Source: Halorussus salilacus (lineage in GTDB: Archaea > Halobacteriota > Halobacteria > Halobacteriales > Haladaptataceae). Taken from it: a DNA stretch of 64,000 nucleotides. Below are positions 22,530-34,128 of this stretch, piece by piece. The notes under the pieces are model-generated. The model was not told the DNA's origin. It made no database searches and was given only the letters and a program-made list of their open reading frames with translations. A program made the translations under genes and the position numbers. The stretch lies in the NCBI RefSeq assembly GCF_024138125.1, contig NZ_CP099994.1:186001-250000 (forward strand), in the 5' to 3' direction. How positions within the stretch are numbered: the first letter of the stretch is position 1; each line of letters opens with the position of its first letter.

Positions 22530-22662
22530 CGAAAGCCCCCGCCCGCTCGCGGTCGCTCAGCGACATATCGCCGCAAACCGCGCGGCGATAGGGGTCGCTG
22601 AGGCGACCACGGGCCTGCGGCCCGCGAGCGGACGGCCCCTTTCATTCCCACCCACGGTGGAC
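22530..22662. repeat. Dispersed hairpin repeat element, copy 1
   Basis: Shares a 5' box (GAAAGCCCCCGCCCGCTCGC) and a 3' box (GGCCCCTTTCA, then TCCCACCC, then CGGTGGAC) with the copy at 32087-32233. Between them the sequence differs, but both fold: here CTCAGCGAC (22556-22564) pairs with 22594-22602, and TATCGCCGC (22566-22574) with 22582-22590. CCGCTCGCGG also pairs with CCGCGAGCGG after the hairpin. The 336-bp gap around it holds no supported gene. Confidence 0.8.
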
Positions 22663-22769
22663 TGTTCCACCGGCTGATTCCCGATGGACGACCCACCGAG
22701 CGCCACTAGTCAGTGGGCCGCCCACGAGGCGGGCCAACGATTTTCCCGGTCGCGGTCCAAATCGGTTCT

Positions 22770-29884: not shown

Positions 29885-31122
29885 CGAATCACCTCGGTCA
29901 CGTCGTCGATTCGGCCCTCCATCGCGAGCAGGTAGGGCGCGACCAGCACGCCGATGAGCGCCGAGACGCCGAGCCCGTAGACCACCAGCAGGGGGTGGAA
30001 GTCGGCGATGGGAACCGGCGCGATGGCGCGGGTCGCGGCGTAGTTGGTGAGGGCGGTCGCGGCGTACGCGAGGACGATTCCGAGCGCGCCGCCGACGAGG
30101 GTGAGCGCGAGCGCCTGCACCACGAGGACGACGGCGCGGGCGCGCCGCGAGAACCCGAGCGCGCTCAGCGCCGCCAGTTGCTCGCTGTCGGCCTCGACCT
30201 GCAGGCCCTGCGTGGTGGCGACGAACAGCGCGCCGACCACGATGGCGATGAGTAGCGCGGCCAGCCCCATCGCCAGCGGGAGTTCGGCGTCGGTGGTCTG
30301 CTGGGCCGCGAACCCCGAGCGCGTCACCGCGGTCGCGCCCTCGTAGCGGTCGCCGAGTTCGGCTTCGAGGCCGCCAGTGCTCGACTCCACCAGAATCTGG
30401 TCGGCCTGATCGCCCGACTGAGCGCCCGTGATGGTCTGTAGCTCGCTGAGGTGGACGACCATCACGGGTAGCCCCGACAGCCCCGATTCGACCGCGGCCT
30501 CCCGAACGTCGACCGCGCGGAGGTCGCGGGTCTCGCCCGCCGAGACCGCACCTGACACCGACATGGACGCGCCCGACTCGACGCCGAGTCTGTCGGCCGC
30601 GCCTCGCGAGAGGACCGCCTCGCCGGTCCACTCGCCGTCGTAGTCGCCGTCGGCGTAGTGGGGGTCGCCGGGCGCGAGCGCCCCTGGCGACAGCCCGGCG
30701 ATGTCGTCGAGTTCGGGCGCGGGTATCACCCCGACCGCGAGGACGTACTCGGCCGACCCCTCAGCGCGGACCTCGACCACCTCCACGAGGACCGGCGTGG
30801 CGTACTCGATGCGACCGTCGTCGGTCAACTCGGTGCTCTTGCCGTGAACGTCGCCGAGCTTCGGCGCGTCGGCCGAGACCACCATCGTGGAGGTGCCGGT
30901 CGATTCGGGAACGACCCAGTAGTCCACCGCGTCGCCCCTGACCGTGGTGCCCTCCACGAGTCCGAGACCTGTGGCGGTCACGACCAGCATGAGCGCGACC
31001 GCGATTGCGACGCCAGCGACGCTCACGGCGGTCTGGCGCGGCGCGGTCCGGGTCGCCTTGGTCGCGGTCCGGCGTAGCGCCACGCCGACCAGTCCGGTCC
31101 AGCGGACGAGGGCCTTACCCAT
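29881..31122 (-). CDS. MacB/FtsX-type ABC permease, first
   Basis: 413 aa with the same topology: helix 1 near residues 32-56, an extracellular domain, then helices near 285-305, 335-360 and 385-405. It is a distant paralogue of the following permease (shared VVHLSELQ and GDPHYA.G.YDGE motifs), so the transporter is probably a heterodimer. It overlaps the ATPase gene by 8 nt upstream. Confidence 0.9.
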   Translation of the reverse strand: MGKALVRWTGLVGVALRRTATKATRTAPRQTAVSVAGVAIAVALMLVVTATGLGLVEGTTVRGDAVDYWVVPESTGTSTMVVSADAPKLGDVHGKSTELTDDGRIEYATPVLVEVVEVRAEGSAEYVLAVGVIPAPELDDIAGLSPGALAPGDPHYADGDYDGEWTGEAVLSRGAADRLGVESGASMSVSGAVSAGETRDLRAVDVREAAVESGLSGLPVMVVHLSELQTITGAQSGDQADQILVESSTGGLEAELGDRYEGATAVTRSGFAAQQTTDAELPLAMGLAALLIAIVVGALFVATTQGLQVEADSEQLAALSALGFSRRARAVVLVVQALALTLVGGALGIVLAYAATALTNYAATRAIAPVPIADFHPLLVVYGLGVSALIGVLVAPYLLAMEGRIDDVTEVIR

Positions 31123-31924
31123 GCTGAATCTTCCCGTCCACGAGTCGAATCACCCGGCCGGTCCGGTCGAGCGCGCGCTCGTCGTGGGACGCGAGCACGA
31201 CCGCGCGGTCGGACGCGAGGTCGGCGAGGAGTTCGAGGATGGTCTCGCCCGTCTCGGTGTCGAGTTCGCCGGTGGGCTCGTCGGCGAAGACGACGAGCGG
31301 GTCGCCCGCGAGTGCGCGGGCGACCGCGACCCGCTGTTGCTCGCCGCCCGAGAGCTCGCCGGGCCGGTGGTCGGTCCGGTCGCCCAGACCCACCCGAGCG
31401 AGCAGGTCCTCGGCCTCCTCGCGGCGCTCGGCCTTCGGCACCCCGCGCTCGACCAGCGGCAGCGCGACGTTCGCCCGCGCTGACAGCGACGGCAGGAGGT
31501 GGAACCGCTGGAAGACGATGCCGACCCGTTCGAGTCGCAGGCGGGTCAGCTCCCGCTGGGAGAGGTCTGCAACGTCCTCCCCGGCGAGCGTGACGGTCCC
31601 GCTCGTGGGCGTGTCGAGCCCCGCCAGCAGGTGGATGAGCGTGGACTTGCCGCTCCCGCTGGGTCCCGAGAGGCCGACGAACTCCCCGCGCTCGACCGTC
31701 ACCGACGCGTCCGAGAGCGCGGTCACGGTCGGCCGGTCGCGGTCGTCGCTGCGCCACGGGAACCACGACCCGCCGCCCCCGCGCTCGTACGTCCGGGTGA
31801 CGTTCCGGCACTCGACGACCGCCTCCCGCGTCCCGAGTCTCTCCTGCGCGTCGGATTTCTCTTGCGCGTCGGATTTCTCCTCGGCGTCCGAATCCCCCGT
31901 CGCTGTTGCCGTACTCGCGTCCAT
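31115..31924 (-). CDS. ABC transporter ATP-binding protein, LolD/MacB type
   Basis: 269 aa from the ATG at 31924. Walker A SGPSGSGKST, Q loop FQRFHLLPSL, signature LSGGEQQRVAVARAL, Walker B VVFADEPTGELD, and H loop LASHDE. The N-terminal 40 residues are acidic and include a direct repeat (EKSDAQ twice, from a 17-nt tandem duplication near 31845-31880). It is the first gene of a three-gene operon with the two FtsX-type permeases, and its stop overlaps the first permease start. Confidence 0.93.
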   Translation of the reverse strand: MDASTATATGDSDAEEKSDAQEKSDAQERLGTREAVVECRNVTRTYERGGGGSWFPWRSDDRDRPTVTALSDASVTVERGEFVGLSGPSGSGKSTLIHLLAGLDTPTSGTVTLAGEDVADLSQRELTRLRLERVGIVFQRFHLLPSLSARANVALPLVERGVPKAERREEAEDLLARVGLGDRTDHRPGELSGGEQQRVAVARALAGDPLVVFADEPTGELDTETGETILELLADLASDRAVVLASHDERALDRTGRVIRLVDGKIQHG

Positions 31925-32086
31925 CAGTCCCCCACCAGAATATACGGTTGGACCACGCCGACCCACTTAGCGTTTGAGACCGTTCGGTAGGGAAGTGGTT
32001 TAAATCAAATCGCCTTTTCGTGTGCGGTGTTCCTGTGGAAAGCCCGCGCTCGCTACGGACCACGGGGAATTGTACTGTGACCGCTT

Positions 32087-32233
32087 CGAAAGCCCCCGCC
32101 CGCTCGCGGTCGCTCTGCGGGATATTTTCGCGCCTCACCGCACCGCCCCGCGTCGGCGCGAAAATAGTGGCCCGCAGAGGCAACTAAAGTAAACGCGACC
32201 GGGTGGCCCCTTTCAGTCCCACCCGCGGTGGAC
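32087..32233. repeat. Dispersed hairpin repeat element, copy 2
   Basis: Same 5' and 3' boxes as 22530-22662. The inner sequence is different, but CTCTGCGGG (32113-32121) pairs with CCCGCAGAG (32171-32179) and ATTTTCGCGCC (32124-32134) with 32155-32165, at the positions where copy 1 pairs. No supported gene lies in the 512-bp gap (31925-32436). Confidence 0.8.
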
Positions 32234-32234
32234 C

Positions 32235-32288
32235 GATTCACCGGCCGTAGCCCCGGTGGATGATTCACCGGCCGTAGCCCCGGTGGAT
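32235..32288. repeat. 27-bp tandem duplication after repeat copy 2
   Basis: Two exact 27-nt units (each beginning GATTCACCGGCCGTAG) followed by a partial third and a 10-bp hairpin (GCGGCCGCGC/GCGCGGCCGC at 32309-32332). Copy 1 is followed by a related but unduplicated GGTGGAC...CCACCGG hairpin. Confidence 0.9.
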
Positions 32289-32436
32289 GGTCCACCGGCT
32301 TCGGCCACGCGGCCGCGCTCCCGCGCGGCCGCGGGTGGACCTGTCGCGTCGTCGGTCGGCCTGAGGGGCGTCGGCGGTCCGCCCGAGGAATTTTCCGGCT
32401 CGCGGTCGATACTCCCCGGGAGAAGGTGTATTCCGG

Positions 32437-34128
32437 ATGGGGACCACGGACCGCTGGTACCAGAACGCGACGTTCTACGCCGTCGACGTGGAGGCGTTCG
32501 CCGACGGCGACGGCGACGGAATCGGCGACTTTCGGGGGCTAATCGAGAGGCTCGATTACCTCTCGGGGCTCGGCATCGACTGCGTCTGGCTTCTGCCCTT
32601 CTACCCGTCGCCCAACCGCGACAACGGCTACGACGTGGCCGACTACTACGGCGTCGACGACCGCCACGGCACGCTCGGCGACTTCGTGGAGTTCGTCCGG
32701 GAAGCCGACCGCCGGGGCATCCGGGTCGTCGTCGATCTGGTGGTCAACCACACCTCCGACCAGCACCCGTGGTTCCGGCGCGCCCGCGAGGACCCCGACT
32801 CGAAGTACCGCGACTACTACGTCTGGGTCGACGACCCGCCGGAGTGGCCCGACCCCCACCGGGGTCCGGTGTTCCCCGGCGAGGAGGACGCGGTCTGGAG
32901 CTACGACGAGGTCGCAGAGGCGTTCTACTACCACCGATTCTACCACTTCCAGCCCGACCTCAACACCGCGAACCCCGACGTGCGCGAGGAGATACGCAAG
33001 ATAATGGGGTTCTGGCTCCAGCTCGGGGTCTCGGGGTTCCGGGTCGACGCCGCGACCCTGCTGATAGACAACAAGGGCGGGCTCGAATCGACGGAACTCG
33101 ACGACCCCCACGGCGTGCTCCGGGACATGCGCCGGTTCGTCGAGCGCCGGGGCGACGACGCCGTCCTGCTCGCGGAGGCCGACGACGACCCCGAGAAGCT
33201 CGCGAGCTACTTCGGCGAGGGCGACGAGATGAACCTCCTGTTCAACTTCCTGCTCGACGCCTACCTCGTCGGCGCGCTCGCGACCGAGCGCGCCGACCCC
33301 CTTCGGGAGGTGCTGGACCTCCTGCCCGAGATTCCCGAGGAGGGCCAGTGGGCCAACTTCCTCCGGAACTACGACGAACTCAACGTCGGGCGGCTCCCCG
33401 CCGACCTCCGGCGGGCCGTCTTCGACGCGTTCGCTCCCGACGAGGCGATGCGCATCTACGGCCGGGGCATCCGGCGGCGACTCGCGCCGATGCTCGCCAG
33501 CGCCTCCGGTCGCGACGCGACCGGAGGCGCCTCGGACGCGCCCGACGCCGACCGCGACCGCATCGAACTCGCCTACTCGCTCCTGTTCTCGCTCCCCGGC
33601 GCGCCCCTCATCGTCTACGGCGACGAAATCGGCATGGGCGAGGACCTCTCGCTCCCCGGTCGGAACGCGGTCCGGACGCCGATGCAGTGGAGCGACGAGG
33701 AGAACGGCGGCTTCTCGACCGCCGACCCCGAGGACCTCGTCCGGCCCGTGATATCGGGCGGGGAGTACGGCTACGAGTCGGTCAACGTCGCCGACCAGCG
33801 CGGCGACCCCGACTCGCTTCTCGCGTGGTTCTCGCGGCTGATCCGCGCCCGAAAGGAGTGCCCCGAAATCGGCAACGGCGACCTGTCGGTGTTCGAGACC
33901 GCCGACCCTGCGGTCTTCGCCCACGGAATGGTCGGCGACGGGAGCGCGGTCGTCGCGGTCCACAACCTCGGAGACGCGGCGACCGACGCGACGCTGAGGC
34001 TCGACGGCGACCCGGTGGGACTGTTCGGTCCGAACGAGGGCGGCGAGTTCGAGGCGGTCGGCGAGGGCGAGTGGCGGTTCGAACTGGACCGGTACGGCTA
34101 CCGCTGGGTTCGGGTCAATGAGAGTTAG
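32437..34128 (+). CDS. GH13 alpha-glucan enzyme (trehalose synthase/alpha-glucosidase-like)
   Basis: 563 aa. TIM-barrel motifs of family GH13 in order: VVVDLVVNHTSD (region I), GFRVDAATLL with the nucleophile Asp (II), AVLLAEADDD with the acid Glu (III), then FLRNYDELN (IV, with Asp). The FLRNxDEL form is typical of the trehalose synthase-like subgroup. It lacks a signal peptide, so it acts in the cytosol on maltose, trehalose or oligoglucans. A linker (SASGRDATGGASDAPDAD) is encoded by a perfect inverted repeat. The stop overlaps the convergent nuclease-like gene by 3 nt. Confidence 0.9.
   Translation: MGTTDRWYQNATFYAVDVEAFADGDGDGIGDFRGLIERLDYLSGLGIDCVWLLPFYPSPNRDNGYDVADYYGVDDRHGTLGDFVEFVREADRRGIRVVVDLVVNHTSDQHPWFRRAREDPDSKYRDYYVWVDDPPEWPDPHRGPVFPGEEDAVWSYDEVAEAFYYHRFYHFQPDLNTANPDVREEIRKIMGFWLQLGVSGFRVDAATLLIDNKGGLESTELDDPHGVLRDMRRFVERRGDDAVLLAEADDDPEKLASYFGEGDEMNLLFNFLLDAYLVGALATERADPLREVLDLLPEIPEEGQWANFLRNYDELNVGRLPADLRRAVFDAFAPDEAMRIYGRGIRRRLAPMLASASGRDATGGASDAPDADRDRIELAYSLLFSLPGAPLIVYGDEIGMGEDLSLPGRNAVRTPMQWSDEENGGFSTADPEDLVRPVISGGEYGYESVNVADQRGDPDSLLAWFSRLIRARKECPEIGNGDLSVFETADPAVFAHGMVGDGSAVVAVHNLGDAATDATLRLDGDPVGLFGPNEGGEFEAVGEGEWRFELDRYGYRWVRVNES
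33500..33530. repeat. Perfect inverted repeat inside the GH13 gene
   Basis: Arms 33500-33514 and 33516-33530 (15 bp) around one A, encoding a linker absent from the conserved barrel. Confidence 0.9.

Follow-up and report, generated by a model that had tools for sequence, protein, structure and literature searches.

Between an ABC transporter gene and an alpha-amylase family gene of Halorussus salilacus lies a palindromic element, which the initial annotation read as the second copy of either a structured non-coding RNA family or a non-autonomous mobile hairpin. The locus thus raises the question of what kind of unit this is and how its copies come to be dispersed. The element probably belongs to a family of non-autonomous dispersed repeats of the REPIN, ERIC and SMR kind, in which each unit is a stretch of DNA that has to be able to fold on itself. 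The window referred to below is the whole 64,000-nt stretch of DNA analysed (G000:C2:186001-250000), G000 being the organism's own genome (Halorussus, 3.6 Mb).

Layout and fold of the element

The boxes and arms named in the initial annotation were all found in place, and the parts of the element and its surroundings are as follows:

22531-22653, plus strand: core of copy 1
22655-22703, plus strand: 3' units of copy 1, delimited by reading
31115-31966, minus strand: flanking gene outside the element, ABC transporter ATP-binding protein (PF00005)
32038-32087, plus strand: degenerate 5' unit (GAAAGCCCGCGCTCGCTACGGA...), delimited by reading against the intact units of other copies
32088-32224, plus strand: core of copy 2, a nested hairpin running from GAAAG to CCCACCC
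32088-32108, plus strand: 5' arm, comprising P1 GAAAG, the CCC loop and P2 CCGCCCGCTCGCG
From 32088, plus strand: 5' box GAAAGCCCCCGCCCGCTCG
32113-32121, plus strand: 5' arm of the inner stem, CTCTGCGGG, partner 32171-32179
32124-32134, plus strand: 5' arm of the apical stem, ATTTTCGCGCC, partner 32155-32165
32155-32165, plus strand: 3' arm of the apical stem, GGCGCGAAAAT
32171-32179, plus strand: 3' arm of the inner stem, CCCGCAGAG
32205-32224, plus strand: 3' box GGCCCCTTTCAGTCCC (32205-32220), then ACCC, the end of the core
32226-32300, plus strand: 3' array, with units from about 32226, 32254 and 32281 (the last partial)
32437-34128, plus strand: flanking gene outside the element, alpha-amylase family protein (PF00128)

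A 54-57-nt unit stands in tandem 5' of many copies, and copy 2 has a degenerate version of it. On the other side, each unit of the 3' array is a small hairpin, CGGTGG(N6)TCACCGG, with a unit length of 26-28 nt. The duplicated tail already reported for copy 2 is indeed exact, the 28 nt GATTCACCGGCCGTAGCCCCGGTGGATG standing at 32235 and 32262 with a period of 27, and is followed by a third, partial unit. The sequence CTTTCAKTCCCRCCC (window 32209-32224, and in other 3' boxes) has what we take to be a likeness to the start of some archaeal CRISPR repeats.

A single long hairpin begins with the 5' box and ends with the 3' box, GAAAG pairing with CTTTC (P1). Inward from P1 come an unpaired CCC/CCC loop, which is conserved, then about 13 base pairs of stem and a linker on the 3' side; next follow an inner stem, whose purine bulge and A/GNNG loop are conserved, and finally the apical stem. 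Taken as RNA, the plus strand folds 5.5 sd below its shuffles. Across the alignment 99.0% of cells are paired, against 91.5% for column shuffles and 35-44% for slid versions, and double-sided changes occur in 13 of 29 pairs where shuffles predict 4.3; none of five pairing measures was reached by any shuffle. The alignment contains related copies, so that its cells are not independent, but the slid control, in which this relatedness is retained, falls far short. One further pair of columns proposed by RNAalifold (22-102, G.U in 13/29) was left out of the analysis, since the same G pairs inside P2 in most copies. Over 165 distinct cores from several species, Watson-Crick pairs make up 96.5%. Pairing is therefore strongly constrained, and the arms stay matched while their sequence changes.

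The proposal of a structured RNA family found no counterpart in Rfam, where no family reached its cut-off. Only symR (26 of 61 bits) and mir-976 (33.7 of 100 bits) gave matches, both far below cut-off and at chance level, and Rfam membership was rejected.

Family size, nested forms and possible exchange of cores

The family is far larger than the initial annotation reported. In the own genome there are 76 BLAST matches, 122 places that match the 5' box within three mismatches (against 0 for a reversed-pattern control) and 109 matches at E<=0.01 to a covariance model seeded with 29 copies, numbers that chance does not explain; own-genome sequence was then examined in the stretches surrounding matches. 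Searching haloarchaeal genomes for the boxes, as had been proposed, also yielded matches, and most of the named records that contain the element belong to Halorussus or Haladaptatus. Across the Halobacteriales, the element has a match (E<=1e-7) in 52 of 145 genomes, which represent 15 of 49 genera. Even within Halorussus the copy number is patchy, ranging from 0 (G008) and 1 (G013) through 6-10 (G005, G004, G014) up to at least 59. In a copy from another family (L143) the ends and the ATAT/ATAG motif are kept and the stem differs yet remains complementary. The viral contigs and phage records searched gave no match, and therefore no sign of viral carriage.

Two observations concern the main chromosome of the own genome. 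A stretch of 368 kb (G000:C1, about 1,522,000-1,890,000) contains no recognised copy and is longer than random placement would lead one to expect (P=0.0006); it may be an island, or selection may act there against insertions. The clearest example of an orphan array is at G000:C1:1926764-1926841, where 3'-type units stand with no recognised core in the vicinity.

Copies range in form from bare frames of 40-59 nt (L206-L210, L213, L228), through frames bearing the base of the inner stem only (L214, L215 and, in another genus, L151), to the whole core present in most copies, full cores being mostly about 112-140 nt. Beyond these are copies with extra hairpins, which sit in some at the apical loop (L123, L126, L230) and in others where the outer and inner stems join (L218-L223, L225, L227, L231). 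The same inner hairpin can also occur with different linkers or frames, e.g. in L011/L020 and L107/L115/L137. The orphan 5' boxes inspected proved to be frame-only, truncated or further-nested copies, and no enzyme gene was recognised among them, leaving no candidate for an autonomous form whose boxes would enclose a gene.

The 3' side varies as well. Right after TTTCATTCCC, five copies (L019, L020, L022, L209, L231) have an alternative module (GCGAGCGAAGCGAGTGGGAAGTCGAAAGACAAGCG...GCGCAGTCTTTCGGAAGTCCCRCCC), which stands in place of the usual 3' units or ahead of them; a 137-nt stretch extending into this module is common to L020 and L209 at 97.8% identity. In L119, L121, L128, L129, L132 and L030 the 3' end of the element directly adjoins another dispersed repeat family, which is GC-rich (ACCGACAGCACCGC..GCAGGCCAC..CCTCCCCAACCGACTGCG...).

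Cores 96-99% identical stand at unrelated loci in the pairs L098/L100, L023/L109, L099/L101, L107/L115 and L004/L005. In these near-identical cores identity starts within about eight bases of GAAAG and ends shortly after CCCRCCC, and the core is therefore a discrete moving or converting cassette. Because both partners usually have diverged 3' units of their own, exchange of cores between resident copies (gene conversion) is no less likely than a new insertion. No flank repeat indicative of a target-site duplication exceeded the shuffled controls, the best z being 2.2 in some 590 settings.

At the window site the element is missing in relatives that retain both flanking genes, with intergenic divergence too high to define the junction, and no clean target junction was recovered among the sites compared. 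The locus of copy L027 could be followed through 16 species, eight of which carry the element, all in the same orientation. Its interior there ranges from a bare frame (G016) to unrelated hairpins (G002, G006), and in G008 and G003, where the site is empty, the aligned flanks are separated by only about 84 and 115 bp. A tree of about 340 bp of flanking coding sequence, with modest support, fits ancestral presence and several losses. In eight species (G004, G005, G006, G007, G009, G013, G014 and G016; L191-L195, L197, L198, L200) the same gap contains a conserved short ORF, roughly 100 aa in length, which occurs with or without the adjoining repeat.

Between the own genome and G010 (H. amylolyticus), at least five copies stand at orthologous places and differ in a compensatory manner; for a sixth, one flank is shared. 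Such orthologous retention of several copies exceeds what a purely neutral hopper suggests.

Gene context, folding strand and candidate movers

Gene context was assessed from codon-usage gene calls around 73 sampled own-genome copies, 72 of them classifiable. The possibility that the boxes are confined to conserved coding genes, raised in the initial annotation, was looked at and does not hold; all 72 classifiable copies are intergenic. These are spread over co-directional, divergent and convergent gaps much like gaps in general, and there is therefore no preference for gene ends. On the chromosome, plus and minus copies are interspersed (runs test P=0.15), showing no replication-strand polarity, so that any orientation bias follows genes and not replichores.

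Such a bias is present. Of the own-genome copies in co-directional gaps, 32 of 39 are antisense (32 to 7), as are 43 of 58 elsewhere (43 to 15), the latter figure being not fully independent since a few named-contig loci may repeat G001 or G010 copies. Over the 165 cores, plus-strand A.C mismatches, equivalent to G.U on the reverse strand, number 53 against 15 G.T, an excess also present outside antisense contexts; we treat this asymmetry as suggestive because two columns supply 19 of the 53. An earlier reading of no strand signal, based on a small tally (6 G.T, 14 A.C), was dropped once the 165 cores gave 15 against 53. The antisense bias and the mismatch asymmetry are together suggestive of the reverse strand as the folding strand, and leave room for a role of that strand in transcripts.

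The same two observations are what a cis-acting RNA would lead one to expect, with the reverse strand lying in transcripts (3' UTR, intercistronic or 5' leader), its fold selected for mRNA stability, termination or regulation, and dispersal being secondary. The copies retained at orthologous sites with compensatory differences fit this account too, and there is a precedent in ERIC, whose orientation affects mRNA stability (PMC2229807). We nevertheless consider it rather unlikely, given that G008 has no copy and G013 only one, that occupancy of a fixed locus varies and interiors are wholly replaced, that divergent gaps are as frequent as among gaps in general, and that G.U pairs amount to only about 1% even on the reverse strand.

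Matched arms could also arise by mutation alone, if template switching within palindromes copied one arm from the other and the structure were needed for neither function nor mobility. Near-perfect arms where the flanks are unalignable between species, and an excess of double changes over mismatched states at most varying pairs, would follow from such upkeep. It would not be expected to produce the one-strand excess of G.U over A.C, and the unpaired CCC/CCC loop, purine bulge and A/GNNG loop are conserved where it should have 'corrected' them, which makes this explanation improbable.

It is very improbable that the element is the partner of a standard IS200/IS605 or RAYT (Y1) transposase, i.e., REPIN or PATE proper. 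Its hairpin ends, many copies and absent target duplication would fit such a partnership, as would the Y1 genes that the own genome and certain relatives possess. On the other side, six species holding 31 to at least 59 copies (G001, G002, G003, G009, G010, G016) gave no PF01797 match, the GTAG head is absent, and inspection by eye of loci in low-copy genomes revealed no transposase and no Y1 gene flanked by the element. A Y1 transposase is thus unsupported as the mover, being missing from these six high-copy species. A reverse transcriptase is likewise unsupported, being missing from the genus: PF00078 was found in 0 of 18 Halorussus genomes in a search that detected its controls. A hairpin enzyme outside these two families, or one since lost, is possible.

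The initial suggestion of a non-autonomous mobile hairpin is, by comparison, well supported by dispersal, intergenic placement, species-variable occupancy, near-identical cores elsewhere and covariation. In the dispersed-repeat reading that we favour, the conserved part is a frame hairpin (GAAAG, CCC-CCC loop, 13-bp stem, CTTTCAKTCCCRCCC) that carries inner and sometimes further hairpins. Copies would spread or be exchanged as a folded single strand, either in replication or repair or via a hairpin-recognising enzyme supplied in trans, and ectopic recombination between the common end boxes may swap cores among resident sites. New hairpins would presumably be tolerated only where the outer stem stays intact. 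More tentatively, it may be folding of the reverse strand that matters; in co-directional transcripts this strand could act as an ERIC- or REP-like mRNA hairpin, an effect that might bias which orientations survive.

A bolder version of the dispersed-repeat reading is possible, although we lean against it. The family could form a class of archaeal mobile DNA in its own right, with nested single-strand hairpins as its sole vehicle of propagation and exchange; its cores would be swapped between resident sites via the end boxes and would grow by hairpins lodging in hairpin tips. The driver would then be a host repair or replication activity, or a hairpin enzyme lost in copy-poor lineages.

Relation to known repeats and significance

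Several known repeats resemble the Halorussus element in part. REPIN/REP-RAYT sequences are likewise non-autonomous intergenic hairpin units of about 100 nt, present in many copies, with compensatory changes and a predicted ssDNA or mRNA hairpin (PMC2817692, PMC3116915). However, REPINs have a GTAG or GTGG head beside each palindrome, whereas the aligned Halorussus copies end GAAAG...CTTTCAKTCCCRCCC, and REPINs have a cognate RAYT flanked by the repeat, which the Halorussus element is without, Y1 being missing in several high-copy species. The Halorussus element is, moreover, archaeal, and it has nested hairpins and tandem arrays on both flanks. ERIC/IRU/RU-1 of enterobacteria is similarly an intergenic repeat (127 bp) with a long stem-loop whose orientation affects mRNA, but ends in TA, has a 7-bp TIR and duplicates its target (PMC2229807); the Halorussus element has neither the TA ends nor the duplication, and sequence kinship between the two is not expected. 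PATEs, also haloarchaeal, are transposase-free and palindromic, with heterogeneous copies and no target duplication, but they have no terminal inverted repeats and are akin to IS605 ends (PMC3119063), whereas the termini of the Halorussus element pair as P1.

SMR-A of Haloquadratum walsbyi is closest in kind, by description and not by sequence (HqIRS42/43/55). It too is haloarchaeal, about 110 bp long, with terminal inverted repeats and dozens of copies, and neither element has target duplications or a known mover, with an association with palindromes perhaps common to both (PMC3119063). SMR copies are >95% identical, those of the Halorussus element far more divergent, and SMR-A inserts within near-terminal palindromes of PATE or IS605 elements (PMC3119063). 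At the loci inspected, the Halorussus element gave no evidence of preferential insertion in IS605/PATE palindromes; one copy, L016, lies near the end palindrome of a TnpB-type element, not within it. This palindrome, GAAAGCCCCGCCCTTCAGGGCGGGGATGAATCC, located 5' of the L016 core, is what we take to be a TnpB-type element end. Its first arm matches the 5' box, through shared ancestry or coincidence.

The element is therefore set apart from REPIN/RAYT, PATE and ERIC by their published defining features (PMC2817692, PMC3116915, PMC3119063, PMC2229807). No published description of it was found in the open-access literature, in agreement with the initial impression that it had not been described. 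Like those repeats it is palindromic, dispersed and devoid of a transposase, and it combines these traits with hairpins nested in one another, a tandem array on either flank and compensatory evolution that is strong.

A long-standing question is how ERICs, haloarchaeal SMRs and similar palindromic repeats spread without an enzyme of their own. For this question the family offers readable steps, near-identical donor and acceptor pairs, orthologous copies with compensatory differences, and close relatives holding about 60 copies or none, so that the mover can be sought by comparing a few species. The covariance-model seed is available for annotating a repeat family found neither in Rfam nor in the open-access literature.
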